Of a stretch of DNA of 26,616 nt, positions 3,634 to 17,985 are shown one piece after another. This DNA comes from a virus. The stretch lies in the IMG/VR virus record IMGVR_UViG_3300029448_000356, positions 1 through 26,616 of that record. One strand, 5' to 3'. Below the pieces are notes generated by a model that saw only the letters and a list, made by a program, of their open reading frames with translations, made no database searches and was not told the DNA's origin. The position numbers were made by a program, and so were the translations under genes. Every line of letters starts with the position of its first letter. Positions within the stretch are counted from its first letter, which is position 1.

Positions 3634-4563
3634 ATGCTTATAAACTATTCAGATCATATAAACAAATTAAACGACTTCAGACAAGGTAAAACTCGTGAAG
3701 CGTTAAAGCTCGGACATAAAGAGATAGACAGCTCGTTTAGGTTTGTTGCAGGTAATATGAATTTTATCTTAGGACACAACAACGTAGGTAAAACACACTT
3801 TACGTTTTATCTTATGTTGCTTTACTCACTTAAACACAATATTAAATGGTTAGTATTTTCGAGTGAAAATGATCCTGTACAATTAATTAAAAAGCTAATA
3901 GAATTTATAGAGGGTAAGCCAATAAACAAAATAGAAGAAAAAGATTACGAAGAATCAAAAGACTTTGTATATAATCATTTTAAGTTTGTTGACATTAACA
4001 GACAATATACCTATAAACAACTTTTAGACTTAGCCGAGAAAGTAAAGGAGGCTTGGGATTACGATGGTTTACTTATTGATCCTATAAACTCTTTAAAGAA
4101 AGATTTAAAAAACACTAACGGTTACGAGTACAATTATGTACAACTGACTGACATACGAATCTTTTGTAAAAAATATAACATTTCTACTTGGATATGCGCC
4201 CACGCAGTGACCGAAGCCCTGCGCCGTAAGCACGGAGCTAATCACGAATATAGTGGAATGACTCCTCCTCCTACAATAGGAGATAGTGAGGGTGGTGCAG
4301 TAAACGGAAATCGTTGTGATGACTTTTTAATTGTGCATCGGTATATAGCTTCAAAAGATGCTTGGATGTACACAAGGCTTTACGTTGCTAAGGTAAAAGA
4401 AATGAGTTTAGGATATAAACCTACAAGCCACGAATCTCCTATATTATTTAAGTCAATACTTAATAACGTAGGATTTCAAATAGGTGCAAAAAATTTAATA
4501 AAGTATAGAACTAAGAAACAATTAACCATTGACAACACTTCAAAAAATAGCACAAAAGCATAA
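3634..4563 (+). CDS. RecA-fold ATPase, DnaB-like replicative helicase
   Basis: 309 residues with a RecA/DnaB-type core. Walker A is GHNNVGKT (47-54). Walker B is in DYDGLLIDPINSL (Asp149). ICAHAVTEA (around His190) corresponds to the sensor-like H motif of DnaB/Twinkle-type helicases. There is no DnaB N-terminal primase-binding domain and no Toprim or primase domain, so it is a minimal helicase or a RecA-like recombinase. Its position after two ssDNA-binding proteins supports a replication role. No DNA polymerase or primase is visible in the window, so host replication enzymes are probably needed. The start lies directly behind a terminator, leaving no room for a leader with a ribosome site other than the hairpin itself. 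Confidence 0.78.
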   Translation: MLINYSDHINKLNDFRQGKTREALKLGHKEIDSSFRFVAGNMNFILGHNNVGKTHFTFYLMLLYSLKHNIKWLVFSSENDPVQLIKKLIEFIEGKPINKIEEKDYEESKDFVYNHFKFVDINRQYTYKQLLDLAEKVKEAWDYDGLLIDPINSLKKDLKNTNGYEYNYVQLTDIRIFCKKYNISTWICAHAVTEALRRKHGANHEYSGMTPPPTIGDSEGGAVNGNRCDDFLIVHRYIASKDAWMYTRLYVAKVKEMSLGYKPTSHESPILFKSILNNVGFQIGAKNLIKYRTKKQLTIDNTSKNSTKA

Positions 4564-5023
4564 TGATTGGGTAAGAATTGTTAAGAGCTTTGGATGTGAG
4601 GGAGACAAGTGCGAGGACATCGTGCAAGAGATGTATATAAAAATACATACATTAATTGTTAAGGGAATAGATATAAGCTATGAAGATGATATAAACCACT
4701 TCTACATATACAGAATGCTTAGAAGCCTATTTATAGATTTATGTCGCAAAGAAGCGAAGATTACAAAAGTAAACGTAGACTACTTAGAAAAGTTTGTAGA
4801 GGAGGAAGAAGTAAAAGAATACAAAGACATAGAGGGTAAGATGAAAGAGTTAGACACTTTGCTTGATAAAGTCTATTGGTATGATAAGAAAGTTTTTGAC
4901 CTGATCTCTAATGGAATGAGCATAGCTGAATTATCTAAGAAAACAAACATAAGTTATTACTCGTTATATAATACATACAAGAACGTAAAGACATTAATTA
5001 AAGAAAATATAGAATGGGATTAG
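4529..5023 (+). CDS. Sigma-70/ECF-like RNA polymerase sigma factor
   Basis: 164 residues. Residues 11-75 resemble sigma region 2 (CEDIVQEMYIKIH, then FYIYRMLRSLFIDLCRKEAK). Residues 118-160 resemble region 4 with a helix-turn-helix (KVFDLISNGMSIAELSKKT, then NISYYSLYNTYKNVKTLI). The middle linker is acidic. The start is TTG at 4529, since the only in-frame ATG (4634) would remove half of region 2; this makes the gene overlap the helicase by 35 nt. It may redirect host RNA polymerase to phage promoters such as the ACGTTAT motif before structural genes. An alternative is a sigma-like DNA-binding regulator that does not bind polymerase. Confidence 0.75.
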   Translation: MTTLQKIAQKHNDWVRIVKSFGCEGDKCEDIVQEMYIKIHTLIVKGIDISYEDDINHFYIYRMLRSLFIDLCRKEAKITKVNVDYLEKFVEEEEVKEYKDIEGKMKELDTLLDKVYWYDKKVFDLISNGMSIAELSKKTNISYYSLYNTYKNVKTLIKENIEWD

Positions 5024-9770: not shown

Positions 9771-10037
9771 ATGTACAAATTAGAGAATAGAGGAGGTAGA
9801 AGATTAGGAGCAGGTAGAAAACCTAAAGCCGATGAGCTTAAGTTAGTTGAGAAATTAGACAATGTAATTGACAACGAAATAGCTTTAAAGAAATTAGGAG
9901 AACTAATAGCTAAAGGCGACATACGAGCAATACAAATCTACTTTAACTATAGATACGGAAAGCCAAAAGAAAAGATAGACATAAACTCATCTGAGGGTCT
10001 TAACATTAGCTTTAAAGACTTAATAAGATTTAAGTGA
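9771..10037 (+). CDS. terS: Terminase small subunit
   Basis: 88 residues. It starts with the basic glycine-rich motif RGGRRLGAGRKPKADE (7-22) that marks many phage small terminases, followed by helical segments and a C-terminal patch IQIYFNYRYGKPKEKIDI. It should recognise phage DNA and hand it to the large subunit, which starts 4 nt before its stop. The coding sequence is short but complete, and its context is decisive. The upstream ACGTTAT/TAnnTTTG site suggests it opens the late transcription unit. Confidence 0.8.
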   Translation: MYKLENRGGRRLGAGRKPKADELKLVEKLDNVIDNEIALKKLGELIAKGDIRAIQIYFNYRYGKPKEKIDINSSEGLNISFKDLIRFK

Positions 10038-11239
10038 TAGACATAAACCCTAAATACCAAAAGTTAGGCAACGACACAAGGTATTACATAATCACAGGAG
10101 GTAGAGCATCAGGTAAATCATTCTCAGTAAACCTAATGCTTGTGTTACTAACATACGAAACAAACCACACAATACTATTTACTCGTTATACATTAACCTC
10201 AGCTTATGTTTCAATCATTCCTGAATTTATAGAAAAGATAGAGCTGTTAGATAAGTTTGATGACTTCCACATAACTAAAGACGAGATTATTAATTTAAAG
10301 TCAGGAAGCAAGATAGTATTTAAAGGTATTAAAACCTCATCAGGAGATCAGACAGCAAACCTTAAATCTATTACAGGTGTTACAACTTGGGTGTTAGATG
10401 AGGCGGAGGAATTAACAGACGAGGGTACGTTTGATAAGATAGACCTTACAATAAGAGAAACTAAAAACCAAAACAGAATTATATTAATCCTCAACCCTAC
10501 AACTAAAGAGCATTGGATATATCAAAGATTCTTTGAAGATAAAGGAATACAAGAGGGAACTAACACAGAAAAAGACAACACTACCTACATACACACCACA
10601 TATCAAGACAACTTAGAAAACCTAAGTAAATCATTTTTAAAGCAAATAGACGATTTAAAAATAAGGAGACCACTAAAATACAAACACGCTATAATGGGTG
10701 GATGGTTAGATAAAGCTGAGGGTGTTATATTTAATAATTGGAAGATAGGACAATTCAAAAGAGTAGGTGTAAGTGTGTGGGGACAAGATTACGGATTTAG
10801 TAATGATCCCTCAACCCTTATAGAAACTAATATAGACACTTCTAACAAGCGAATATACCTTAAAGAGTGTTATTACTTACCAAGCCTAACAACAAGCGAT
10901 ATAACACGCTTAAACGAGCAACACGCAAAAGGTGGTTTAATAATAGCTGATAGTGCAGAGCCTCGACTAATTAGTGAGATACGAGCAAAAGGCTGTAATG
11001 TAAAGCCAAGCGTAAAAGGTCAAGGTAGTGTAACCTACGGAATATCACTCTTACAAGACTATGATCTAATAATAAGCGAGGATAGTATAAACCTCATCAA
11101 AGAGCTAAACAACTACTCTTGGTTAGAAAGAAAGTCTAATACACCTATAGACAAGTTTAACCATTTGATAGATGCAGTAAGATACGCTGTAACCTTTCAA
11201 TTAAAGAATCCTAATAGGGGTAAGTATGCAATAAGATAG
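10034..11239 (+). CDS. terL: Terminase large subunit (ATPase and nuclease)
   Basis: 401 residues, GTG start overlapping the terS stop. ATPase: Walker A GGRASGKS (22-29), Walker B TTWVLDEAEE (117-126) and a coupling motif LILNPT (151-156). Nuclease (RNase H fold): QDYGFSNDPS (Asp252), LIIADSAEP (Asp306) and FNHLIDAVRYAV (Asp380), the expected acidic triad. It packages DNA into proheads and cuts the concatemer. Length fits Terminase_3-type enzymes. It is followed by the ACGTTAT motif before the tail genes. Confidence 0.95.
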   Translation: MIDINPKYQKLGNDTRYYIITGGRASGKSFSVNLMLVLLTYETNHTILFTRYTLTSAYVSIIPEFIEKIELLDKFDDFHITKDEIINLKSGSKIVFKGIKTSSGDQTANLKSITGVTTWVLDEAEELTDEGTFDKIDLTIRETKNQNRIILILNPTTKEHWIYQRFFEDKGIQEGTNTEKDNTTYIHTTYQDNLENLSKSFLKQIDDLKIRRPLKYKHAIMGGWLDKAEGVIFNNWKIGQFKRVGVSVWGQDYGFSNDPSTLIETNIDTSNKRIYLKECYYLPSLTTSDITRLNEQHAKGGLIIADSAEPRLISEIRAKGCNVKPSVKGQGSVTYGISLLQDYDLIISEDSINLIKELNNYSWLERKSNTPIDKFNHLIDAVRYAVTFQLKNPNRGKYAIR

Positions 11240-11260: not shown

Positions 11261-11276
11261 ACGTTATATATATATG
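11261..11276 (+). promoter_or_regulatory. ACGTTAT-N6-ATG motif before tail genes
   Basis: ACGTTAT at 11261-11267, six bases, then the ATG at 11274. It is preceded by a T-rich stretch and lies in the only gap between terL and the tail chaperone. It shares exact spacing with sites at 18004, 19298 and 21583. Confidence 0.65.
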
Positions 11277-11924
11277 AAAGTAGAGGTTTATATTCCTGAT
11301 ACTCTTAGCGAAATCACATTAGACAAGTATCAAAGGTATTTAAAAATACAAGAGAACAACGAAGATGAGAACTTCTTAGCTATTAAAATGATAGAAATAT
11401 TTTGTGGACTAAGAGGCGATACGATAATGGCAATGAAAGCTAAAAGCATCAAAGACATAACACTTATACTTACACAAATGTTTAATGAGAAACCTCAGCT
11501 TGTAAAAGAGTTTAAGATGAATGGTATGACTTATGGTTTTATTCCTAAGTTAGAAGATATGTCTTTTGGAGAGTATATTGACCTTGATACTTACATAGGA
11601 GATATGGATAACATACACAGAGCTATGAATGTTTTATACAGACCTATCAAACAAAAGTATCAAGACAAATATCTAATAGAAGATTATACAGGAGATGATC
11701 CTGAGAAAATGAAAGATATGCCAATGGATGCCGTACTTAGTTCGATACTTTTTTTTTACAATTTAGGGATGGACTTGTCGAAAACTATGCTGAACTCTTT
11801 GGAGGACAACAAGGAAATCAACTTAGCTCAGTATCTAACTTCGGAAGAAAATGGGGATGGTATCAATCACTTTTCGGACTCTCTCAAGGAGATATTAGAA
11901 GATTTGAAGATATCACTAAACTAA
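11274..11924 (+). CDS. Tail assembly chaperone, frame-0 product (lambda gpG analogue)
   Basis: 216 residues, acidic, mostly helical, located between terminase and tail genes. The first 161 residues are shared with a longer product made by -1 frameshifting at 11750-11756 (see those entries). By analogy with lambda gpG/gpGT, both products would bind the tape measure protein and recruit tail tube subunits, without being part of the virion. Unlike lambda G, the unshifted frame continues 55 codons beyond the slip site, ending in a plausible helical sequence (SDSLKEILEDLKISLN), so about 165 nt may code in two frames. The ACGTTAT motif lies 6 nt before the start. Confidence 0.75.
   Translation: MKVEVYIPDTLSEITLDKYQRYLKIQENNEDENFLAIKMIEIFCGLRGDTIMAMKAKSIKDITLILTQMFNEKPQLVKEFKMNGMTYGFIPKLEDMSFGEYIDLDTYIGDMDNIHRAMNVLYRPIKQKYQDKYLIEDYTGDDPEKMKDMPMDAVLSSILFFYNLGMDLSKTMLNSLEDNKEINLAQYLTSEENGDGINHFSDSLKEILEDLKISLN
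11750..11756 (+). promoter_or_regulatory. -1 frameshift site T TTT TTT
   Basis: A run of nine T (11749-11757) is read as CTT TTT TTT TAC in frame 0. T TTT TTT (11750-11756) is a perfect X XXY YYZ heptamer, allowing both tRNAs to re-pair after a -1 slip. The -1 frame has a TAG only five codons upstream of the slip point and no ATG, GTG or TTG before well into the fused segment, so it can be expressed only by slippage. Confidence 0.85.
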
Positions 11925-12013
11925 ACATACATACCTGTCTTTACGCTTTAAGTTTTATGAAAGAGAAAGCAGAGGTAGAATCAAAGAATATAAAAAGTAA
12001 ATTCAATAGATGA
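11756..12013 (+). CDS. Tail assembly chaperone -1 frame extension (lambda T-like part of GT)
   Basis: 85 codons in the -1 frame from TTA 11756 to TGA 12011, fused to the first 161 residues of the upstream frame to give about 246 residues. The extension contains FGRKWGWYQSLFGLSQGDIR and FEDITKLNIHTCLYALSFMK, then EKAEVESKNIKSKF. This W-G-W-Y...L..GD...F..I..L.......L.F...K pattern resembles C-terminal parts of tail assembly chaperones in Bacteroidetes phages. It overlaps frame 0 to 11924, then runs alone through what would otherwise be an 85-nt gap. Its TGA overlaps the next ATG (ATGA). Confidence 0.85.
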   Translation, partial: LQFRDGLVENYAELFGGQQGNQLSSVSNFGRKWGWYQSLFGLSQGDIRRFEDITKLNIHTCLYALSFMKEKAEVESKNIKSKFNR

Positions 12014-12483
12014 GCAATCAAGGAGTAAGAGGCTATTACCAAATAACACAAACTATAAAGACTAATCTCTTAACAGATGAGAATGTCAATACTGTAACGA
12101 CAGGCGATATATTTGACATAGACCTATCTAAACAAACAATCTTTCCTTTAAGTCATATCATAGTAAACAACGTAACTATCCAAGAACAAGTCCTCAACTT
12201 TAACATTACAGTAATGTCTATGGATATAGTAGATCAGTCTAAAGACGAAACAACAGACGTATTTGTAGGCAACAACAACGAGCAAGATATACTAAACACA
12301 CAATTAGCTGTAGCAAATAAATTAGTAGGGTTACTAAGCAAAGGCGATCTATACAGAGACAAATACCAATTAGATGGAGATGCTTCTTGTGAGTTCTTTT
12401 ATGAAAGGTTTGAAAATCAAATGGCAGGTGTAGCTTGTACGTTTAATGTATTAATTGCAAATGATATAAACGTATGCAGTTAA
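12010..12483 (+). CDS. Putative tail terminator/neck protein
   Basis: 157 residues, coupled to the frameshifted chaperone by ATGA. The sequence (YYQITQTIKTNLLTDENVNTV, QTIFPLSHIIVNN, FNITVMSMDIVDQSK, NNNEQDILNTQLAVANKLVG) mixes an N-terminal helix and strands, as in tail-terminator or minor-capsid-like proteins of siphoviruses. I recall this family next to HK97 gp10-like proteins in flavobacterial phages. A role at the head-tail joint or as the tail terminator is inferred from context. It overlaps the next gene by 10 nt. Confidence 0.5.
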   Translation: MSNQGVRGYYQITQTIKTNLLTDENVNTVTTGDIFDIDLSKQTIFPLSHIIVNNVTIQEQVLNFNITVMSMDIVDQSKDETTDVFVGNNNEQDILNTQLAVANKLVGLLSKGDLYRDKYQLDGDASCEFFYERFENQMAGVACTFNVLIANDINVCS

Positions 12484-16052: not shown

Positions 16053-16192
16053 TGATAAAAAACATATTAGATTTATTGCCTTATGCAAAAGGCGAAACAG
16101 AAAACATAAGAATAGCTAAGGGAAAATACAAATACCCTGAAAGCATTAAAGAAGCGTATAACGATTTTAAAAAACAAATATGGGACAAGTAG
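16052..16192 (+). CDS. Small basic protein before tape measure
   Basis: 46 residues, start inside TAATG, and 13-nt overlap with the tape measure gene. The sequence is basic and helical: NILDLLPYAKGETENIRIAK, then KYKYPESIKEAYNDFKKQIW. The perfect tiling with both neighbours supports a real gene. The function is not recognised. By position it may assist tail assembly. Confidence 0.6.
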   Translation: MIKNILDLLPYAKGETENIRIAKGKYKYPESIKEAYNDFKKQIWDK

Positions 16193-17985
16193 TAGAAGCA
16201 GTATTAAAGTTAGATTCTAAAGATGCACAAAAAGATATAGAAAAAGTAAATCAAGGTTTACAAGAAACTAACGAAACTTTAGAAGATACAGGCAAAACAG
16301 CTAAAAAATCAGAAAAAGGTTTAAGTACATTAAGCAAAGGTATTAAAGGGATAGGTACTGCATTTAAAGCAGCAGGTATCGGTGCAGTAGTAGCTTTGTT
16401 TGGAGCATTAGCAGCAGCACTATCTAAAAACCAACAAGTAATGGATACTGTAGCTGTTGTTACAGGGACAATCTCGCAAGTATTTACAGAAATAGGAAAC
16501 GTATTAGTAAACGTATATAATAGCGTATCTTCTACGACAGAAAACTTTGATGCACTTGGTAGGGTAGTAAGCAATGTATTTAAGATTGCTATAGCACCAT
16601 TTAAATTAGCTATTGATGGTTTGGCATTAGGTTTTTATAATGCACAGTTAGCTTGGGAGCAATCGTTTCTTGGTAGTGGAGATACAGAAAAGATAGAAGC
16701 TCTTAACTCTAAAATAGATGAAACAAAACAAAGTCTTTTAGACACAGCAGTCGGAGTTGCAGAAGCAGGATCAGCAATAGCAACAGATTTTACAGAAGCA
16801 GTAAGCGAGGTAACAAATATAGGATCACAAGTAGTAGAGGGATTAAGTGAGATAAGTGTTAAGTCAATAGCAGAAAACGTAAAAGCAAACCAACAACTTA
16901 AAAAATCAGCAGATGAAGCAAGAATAATAAATCAAGGTTTAATAGAGCAATTTGACAGACAAGCTGAACAACAAAGACAAATAAGAGACAATGATCTTAA
17001 AAGTATAGATGATAGAATAGCTGCTAATAATAAATTAAAAGCAACACTTGAGGAACAAGAGACATCTATGTTAGCTAATGCTGATTTAATGATAAAACAA
17101 GCAGAGTCGCAATTTAAATTATCAGGTCTTGAAGAAGATAGGTTAGCATTATTAGAGGCAAGAAACGAAAAGAAAGCAATAGAAGCACAGATAGAGGGTT
17201 TTATGTCAGAGCAAGAATCTAACAGAGTTGCGCTATTAAAAGAAAAAATAGAATTAGAATTATCTAACGATGAGGCTACAGCATTAAGGCAAAATGAGCA
17301 GAGAAACTTCAATACAGAAATGGAGCAAAACGAAGTTACAAGAATGCAAATGATGTTAGAAAATCTTGAAACTGAAAGAGATGTTGAAACAGAAAGATTA
17401 AAAATTAAAAGAGATTCATACGAAGAAGGAACACAAGCATTTATAGATGCAAACAATGAGTTATTAGATTATCAACAAGCTAACGCAAACCAACAAGAGA
17501 AAATAGAAAAAGATTTAGGTAAAGCAAAAGAGGGGCAACTTAAAGAAACATTAGGAAACATAGCAAGTATTGTAGGTCAAAACTCTAAGTTTGGAAAAGC
17601 CATAGCAGTAGTACAAGCAATACAAGATACTTTTGCAGGTGCAAACAAAGCCTTAGCGCAAGGAGGTATTTTTGGTTTTGTCGGAGCAGCAGCAGTTATA
17701 GCAGCAGGTATAGCGAATGTAAAAAATATTACATCATCTAAAACACCAAAACCTCCTGCAAGTTTAGGAGCAAGATCAACAGGAGGCGAATCTACACCTG
17801 CTATTCCTGCATCAACTACAGCATCATTACCTCCCTCATTTAGCACAGTAGGTACAAGTGGTACAAATCAATTAGCAGACTTATTAGGTAATCAACCTCC
17901 ACCAAGAGCATTTGTCGTTTCAGGAGATGTGAGTACAGCACAAGAGTTAGATAGAAATATTGTAAGTAGTGCAAGTTTAGGATAA
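16180..17985 (+). CDS. Tape measure protein
   Basis: 601 residues. The N-terminal part (1-55) is a charged helix. A glycine/alanine-rich hydrophobic segment follows (about 62-81, FKAAGIGAVVALFGALAAAL), as in most tape measures. The centre (about 240-460) is a long alpha-helical coiled coil rich in Glu, Lys, Gln and Asn. Near 465-515 there is a second hydrophobic/Ala-rich stretch (GKAIAVVQAIQDTFAG, FGFVGAAAVIAAGIANVK), then a Pro/Ser/Thr-rich tail. With the usual ratio of about 1.5 angstrom per residue, tail length would be near 90 nm. No peptidase or lysozyme domain is seen. Confidence 0.88.
   Translation: MGQVVEAVLKLDSKDAQKDIEKVNQGLQETNETLEDTGKTAKKSEKGLSTLSKGIKGIGTAFKAAGIGAVVALFGALAAALSKNQQVMDTVAVVTGTISQVFTEIGNVLVNVYNSVSSTTENFDALGRVVSNVFKIAIAPFKLAIDGLALGFYNAQLAWEQSFLGSGDTEKIEALNSKIDETKQSLLDTAVGVAEAGSAIATDFTEAVSEVTNIGSQVVEGLSEISVKSIAENVKANQQLKKSADEARIINQGLIEQFDRQAEQQRQIRDNDLKSIDDRIAANNKLKATLEEQETSMLANADLMIKQAESQFKLSGLEEDRLALLEARNEKKAIEAQIEGFMSEQESNRVALLKEKIELELSNDEATALRQNEQRNFNTEMEQNEVTRMQMMLENLETERDVETERLKIKRDSYEEGTQAFIDANNELLDYQQANANQQEKIEKDLGKAKEGQLKETLGNIASIVGQNSKFGKAIAVVQAIQDTFAGANKALAQGGIFGFVGAAAVIAAGIANVKNITSSKTPKPPASLGARSTGGESTPAIPASTTASLPPSFSTVGTSGTNQLADLLGNQPPPRAFVVSGDVSTAQELDRNIVSSASLG

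Follow-up and report, generated by a model that had tools for sequence, protein, structure and literature searches.

A 26.6-kb IMG/VR virus record, analysed over its whole length and referred to below as the window, contains a gene for a probable tail-assembly chaperone that a marine Bacteroidota (flavobacterial-type) siphophage probably makes in two forms, mainly by transcriptional slippage on a run of nine T (T9). Faithful transcripts would yield a 216-aa short form. In a fraction of the transcripts RNA polymerase would slip on T9 and add one U, and in the resulting U10 transcripts codons 1 to 161 would be continued in the -1 frame, giving a form of 246 aa that gains a helical T-like domain. 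Comparison of relatives strongly supports formation of the fusion by slippage, and the way in which the run is conserved points to RNA polymerase, and not the ribosome, as the likely source of the slip. If the pair works as gpG and gpGT do in lambda, the tape measure would be coated by the short form, and the less abundant long form would bring in the tail tube protein. We infer the making of both proteins, their ratio, their role in tail assembly and the level of slippage from sequence alone.

Architecture of the T9 site

The features of the site and of its surroundings in the window are the following.

10034 to 11239, plus strand: terminase large subunit, the immediate upstream neighbour (PF04466, E 7.8e-34)
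11274 to 11924, plus strand: 0-frame open reading frame of 216 aa, the short (G-like) product (phrog_32199, E 8.6e-21)
11274 to 11756, plus strand: N-terminal domain common to both predicted products, 161 aa, ending in Phe-Phe at the slip site
11738 to 11740, plus strand: TAG stop in the -1 frame, just 5' of the tract
11749 to 11757, plus strand: T9, the putative slippage tract
11750 to 11756, plus strand: ribosomal heptamer T TTT TTT, in frame, within the T9 tract
11756 to 12013, plus strand: -1 frame extension, a T-like domain with a KWGWY motif, 85 codons plus TGA (12011 to 12013)
11757 to 11924, plus strand: dual-coding overlap, with both frames under purifying selection in close relatives
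11764 to 11766, plus strand: TAG in the +1 frame, which is reached by loss of one U
12010 to 12483, plus strand: next gene (phrog_30964), whose ATG overlaps the extension stop as ATGA
16180 to 17985, plus strand: likely tape measure, judged by its size, its sequence character and a weak match to a virion structural family

Across T9 the 0-frame reads CTT (from 11748) TTT TTT TAC and then stays open for another 55 codons, and the -1 frame extension begins at the TTA at 11756, so that the fusion product predicted from these coordinates is 246 aa long. A first-pass annotation of this DNA had claimed that T TTT TTT lies in the slippery frame, that the -1 frame behind it is open for 85 codons with a stop just upstream, and that the extension lacks a usable start. 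Each of these points is confirmed, the last by the absence of any ATG, GTG or TTG from the -1 frame ahead of the KWGWY motif in the window. Note that T9 by itself is not improbable in this AT-rich window, where four such runs are seen on both strands together as compared with 5.2 in shuffles. What exceeds chance is that T9 is conserved, with two open frames around it, in all relatives tested. The window holds two more runs of at least nine T (2317 to 2326 and 2755 to 2763), both of which are intergenic.

Conservation of the run and constraint on both frames

Wider relatives were gathered by profiles of the upstream domain alone, so the tract itself was no selection criterion. Every usable member of these sets carries nine or more T in a row between the two domains. 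The same holds, in frame, for the total of 399 distinct relatives, 142 of them at less than 70% amino acid identity. The run is nine long in 378 of the 399 (all phases taken together) and 10, 11 or 12 long in the others, and a length of 7 or 8 never occurs; three seeming exceptions to the minimum of nine were cases in which the domain match extended beyond the tract. Not one of 529 ORFs has both domains in a single frame. A comparison of homologues had been set beforehand as a test of the frame change, and it came out in favour of the proposed fusion in the -1 direction: the run and both frames are conserved, the extension is kept, and a start codon of its own is absent in most relatives.

Close relatives all have exactly nine T and the identical frame relation, with a 0-frame that runs 54 to 56 codons beyond the tract and an extension of 83 to 86 codons, the few shorter extension values coming from truncated or broken contigs. 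None of the nine T changes anywhere on a tree of 124 close relatives, and the 0-frame stop falls in one alignment column in all 124. Across the wider family the 0-frame tail past the tract varies from 27 to 91 codons, indicating that the dual coding is long and that its length is lineage-specific. One clade (L171, L178, L181 and L220) has a 0-frame overlap equal to the extension, at 91 codons each, which makes a fully dual-coded pair. As a negative control, a scan of contigs for the T9 motif returned mostly unrelated runs that lack two open frames. Few prophages came out of a profile search through 395 genomes of the phylum and 397 of the family.

We counted substitutions per site by codon position on the tree of the 124 close relatives. 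Upstream of the tract the three 0-frame positions show 6.9, 4.2 and 18.5 changes per site, and in the extension beyond the overlap the three -1 frame positions show 6.3, 3.6 and 13.9. Within the overlap the corresponding values are 8.4, 4.7 and 7.5, such that third positions of the -1 frame change 7.5 times per site there as compared with 13.9 times beyond it. Both frames are thus constrained across the overlap, and the first-pass description of a long dual-coding segment, with 55 codons of 0-frame past the run, holds. A stop in the +1 frame lies within three codons of the tract in 82% of the family as compared with 31-40% in controls, so that transcripts losing one U would yield merely a truncated N-terminal domain. 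This enrichment could stem from the codon constraint imposed by two frames, and we do not count it as evidence.

Polymerase versus ribosome as the source of the slip

The conserved property of the tract is its length rather than its phase. The run occupies all three codon phases and has switched between them at least 11 times on the tree: most relatives have NTT TTT TTT Tnn, several clades have NNT TTT TTT TTn and a few have TTT TTT TTT. Changes at one end of the heptamer are compensated at the other. Where the heptamer is not preceded by a T, the second base beyond it is a T in 21 of 21 cases as compared with 7 of 117, and when the first base after the heptamer is not a T, the preceding codon is TTT in 4 of 4 cases as compared with 3 of 117 (Fisher P of 3e-19 and 4e-6, respectively, with representatives treated as independent and kinship ignored). 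In the main phase T is always the first base of the codon that follows the heptamer, even though this codon stands for Y, W, S, L, C or F. Constraint on the encoded residues, which are hydrophobic in both frames, may account for some of the extra T's.

The most telling test concerns a substitution that never occurs. In 115 of 152 representatives a T to C change at the last base of the heptamer is silent in both frames, exchanging TTT for TTC (Phe) in the 0-frame and TTA for CTA or TTG for CTG (Leu) in the -1 frame, and the resulting T TTT TTC would leave a shifty U UUU UUC. This sequence is found in none of the 115 informative representatives, as set against a TTC share of 22% among the Phe codons upstream in the same ORFs. 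The chance of such an absence is 3e-13 for independent representatives and rises to about 2e-10 with the lower share of TTC seen behind a TTT, both values ignoring phylogeny.

Long T runs are also rare elsewhere in these phages. Within 1.10 Mb of other genes of the relatives we observed two runs of at least nine T where synonymous shuffling predicts 34, a depletion of about 17-fold, and in-frame T TTT TTT persists at 77 places, depleted no more than T7 in other phases. The depletion of long runs could reflect replication indels. The two coding runs are a homologous pair on the plus strand (L051:4201-4716 and L064:2247-2762) in a gene downstream of the chaperone, where AGC TTT TTT TTT ACT codes for Ser-Phe-Phe-Phe-Thr at about codon 132. 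In many bacteria A/T runs show clear signs of counter-selection from a length of nine nucleotides on (PMC1088944). In such runs single-nucleotide insertions predominate and climb exponentially with run length (PMC5574713). One inserted U leads exactly into the -1 frame, and the insertion bias is therefore in the direction needed here. In sum the tract has the sequence hallmarks of programmed transcriptional slippage, namely an uninterrupted run of at least about nine that is kept by length while such runs are avoided in other genes.

The strongest competing explanation, and the mechanism favoured by the first-pass annotation, is a programmed -1 shift by the ribosome on T TTT TTT (11750-11756), in the manner of lambda G/GT and P2 E/E'. 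We regard it as unlikely to be the main route, although it is a serious rival and could be a contributor, since every relative holds a full U UUU UUU heptamer in frame, as does the window. The direction and the product agree with those of known tail chaperones (PMC5009743), H_HH.U_UU.Y motifs shift in E. coli, and U_UU.U_UU.Y heptamers are among the efficient shifters in this species (PMC4066793). However, seven T would suffice for a ribosomal slip, and yet no relative has fewer than nine, whichever of the three phases the run takes, and losses are compensated; U UUU UUC is never used; and a heptamer of another type is absent from all 399 relatives. Stimulators are not evident either. Folding of the downstream RNA into pseudoknot-free structures gave no stable stem for the window and the Nonlabens phage P12024L (z +0.5 to +0.9), the third locus folded (L317) having a weak downstream stem (z -1.2), and a common Shine-Dalgarno-like stimulator is missing, such 5-mers being present upstream in just 6 of the 152 representatives. 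Real ribosomal frameshift sites do not all have stimulators. Taken together, the dependence on length and not phase, the unused silent T to C change, the depletion of runs of at least nine T and the lack of a clear stimulator favour transcriptional slippage. The first-pass proposal of a programmed slip is supported, and its assignment to a ribosome shifting on the heptamer fits the data badly.

It is far less probable that the domain in the -1 frame stands as a gene apart, which has its own start, or that it is translated by reinitiation at the 0-frame stop. Such an arrangement is suggested by P12024L, where the 0-frame stop overlaps a -1 frame ATG (TAATG) and the record annotates two genes. 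However, 99 of the 152 representatives have no ATG, GTG or TTG at all in the -1 frame ahead of the conserved motif, and just 11 have an ATG there; the extension begins directly at the tract with a conserved LxFR; and a separate gene would leave the run of at least nine T unexplained. Finally, homopolymers are prone both to sequencing indels, which had been raised as a possible refutation of the first-pass claim, and to DNA-level phase variation, but these readings are improbable in the extreme, with the same out-of-frame state in all 399 relatives, drawn from many assemblies, and in two cultured phages, and the lack of a single ORF among 529 with both domains in one frame excludes them for the family.

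Protein identity, gene neighbourhood and known systems

The product is likely a tail-assembly chaperone of the G/GT type, as judged by weak fold and family matches that lend support to the chaperone-like reading given at first pass. The phrog_32199 profile matches the N-terminal domain in all 61 family members (E 1.3e-16 to 8.6e-21 for the window), and 15 extensions match phrog_38404. Matches to named families are weaker: the tail protein family phrog_166 is matched by 6 of the 61 members (E 1.2e-4), PF10109 by 4 of the 61 (E 0.0024), and a BFVD match (E 0.015) is named tail assembly chaperone. The E protein of P2 belongs to PF10109.

AlphaFold2 models the N-terminal domain with a mean pLDDT of 91.8 and the extension as an all-helical domain with a mean pLDDT of 83. 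The HK97 chaperone 2ob9 stands second in the VIA list for the N-terminal domain model, with a Z of 3.6, an rmsd of 3.8 and 66 aligned residues; at this low Z the match is no more than suggestive. Foldseek found nothing significant in the PDB for this domain, the extension has no convincing match among PDB structures, and sequence profile searches of the PDB returned no match. Four single viral proteins of 243-267 aa in BFVD (A0A516L5A8, A0A516L611, A0A6J5N0W0 and A0A6J7WJY4) match both models, and this suggests that some other phages have the fused protein as a single chain. Flavobacterium phage 6H encodes a remote homologue of the N-terminal domain (L479:10352-10927, minus strand; profile E 5.5e-4, Foldseek E 7.7e-6) that has no T9 at the site. 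Towards its end it reads TGT TTT TTC TAT, and open frames that lack annotation follow downstream; given the missing T9 its frame change, if any, works differently.

The neighbourhood is of the siphophage type, with terminase, portal, protease and the likely tape measure. The first-pass annotation erred in detail when it matched the position of the gene to that of lambda G/GT. The usual, though not strictly defining, place of such genes is between the major tail protein and the tape measure, whereas here the gene comes directly after the large terminase, with four genes between it and the likely tape measure. In 77 of the 152 representatives the extension stop and the next start overlap as ATGA, and translation of the next gene may thereby be coupled to the fusion frame. 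Further upstream, at 4529-5023, the window encodes a sigma-factor-like protein (phrog_1740, E 5.3e-6; PF04542, E 6.8e-4, below the Pfam cut-off), and in P12024L a gene annotated with sigma-70 region 2 also sits upstream of the terminase.

Frameshifting in G/GT is a classic example of ribosomal recoding and is conserved widely, and the tail assembly chaperones of lambda (gpG/gpGT) and of the HK97 type were reportedly described by Xu, Hendrix and Duda in 2004. At the sequence level the present locus resembles these systems in its two predicted nested products, its overlapping frames and a predicted -1 change near the end of the first domain. Its modelled domains are likewise helical, the structural match of the N-terminal domain to 2ob9 being weak. 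The locus differs from them in having at least nine T instead of a variable-letter heptamer, an overlap of 27-91 codons, a gene that adjoins the terminase and not the tape measure, and sequence similarity that is marginal. A review treats the G/GT frame changes as ribosomal (PMC5009743).

The closest cultured counterparts are the Nonlabens phages P12024L and P12024S (ORFs 40/41 and 38/39; JQ823123 and JQ823122), which have a homologous N-terminal domain (29% identity) and extension and share the T9 ATCATTTAGGGA site with the window. They differ from it by a 0-frame overlap of about 25 codons with an ATG at its stop. Their records list separate hypothetical proteins and leave the frame change unremarked. 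In the same way PHROGs keeps phrog_32199 and phrog_38404 as two unlinked families of unknown function. A run of at least nine T in any phase would be a simple annotation rule for hundreds of phages in which the two parts are now listed as separate hypothetical genes without a link, and a phage is available in culture together with its host.

Programmed transcriptional slippage is established for Thermus dnaX (A9), Shigella mxiE and spa13, Citrobacter tssM (A11) and IS elements (PMC1088944, PMC4256274). The present locus is like these cases in its uninterrupted A/T run of about nine or more, its apparent lack of clear RNA stimulators and its predicted joining of two frames of one gene. They are cellular, secretion-system or transposase genes with mostly A runs, whereas here a phage structural-assembly gene carries a T run (rU:dA hybrid). 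We found no tail chaperone made by transcriptional slippage among the open-licence papers searched. The announcement of phage Salva (PMC7953286) uses the words "transcriptional frameshift" but cites a paper on translational frameshifting, an apparent slip of wording. On balance, we think that a large family of marine Bacteroidota phages makes a G/GT-type pair by programmed polymerase slippage on T9, with long conserved dual coding, and that it would provide the first tail chaperone whose frame change is made during transcription. If polymerase slippage is indeed the mechanism, then selection keeps the two-product output and not the means by which it is reached, as with dnaX in Thermus and E. 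coli.
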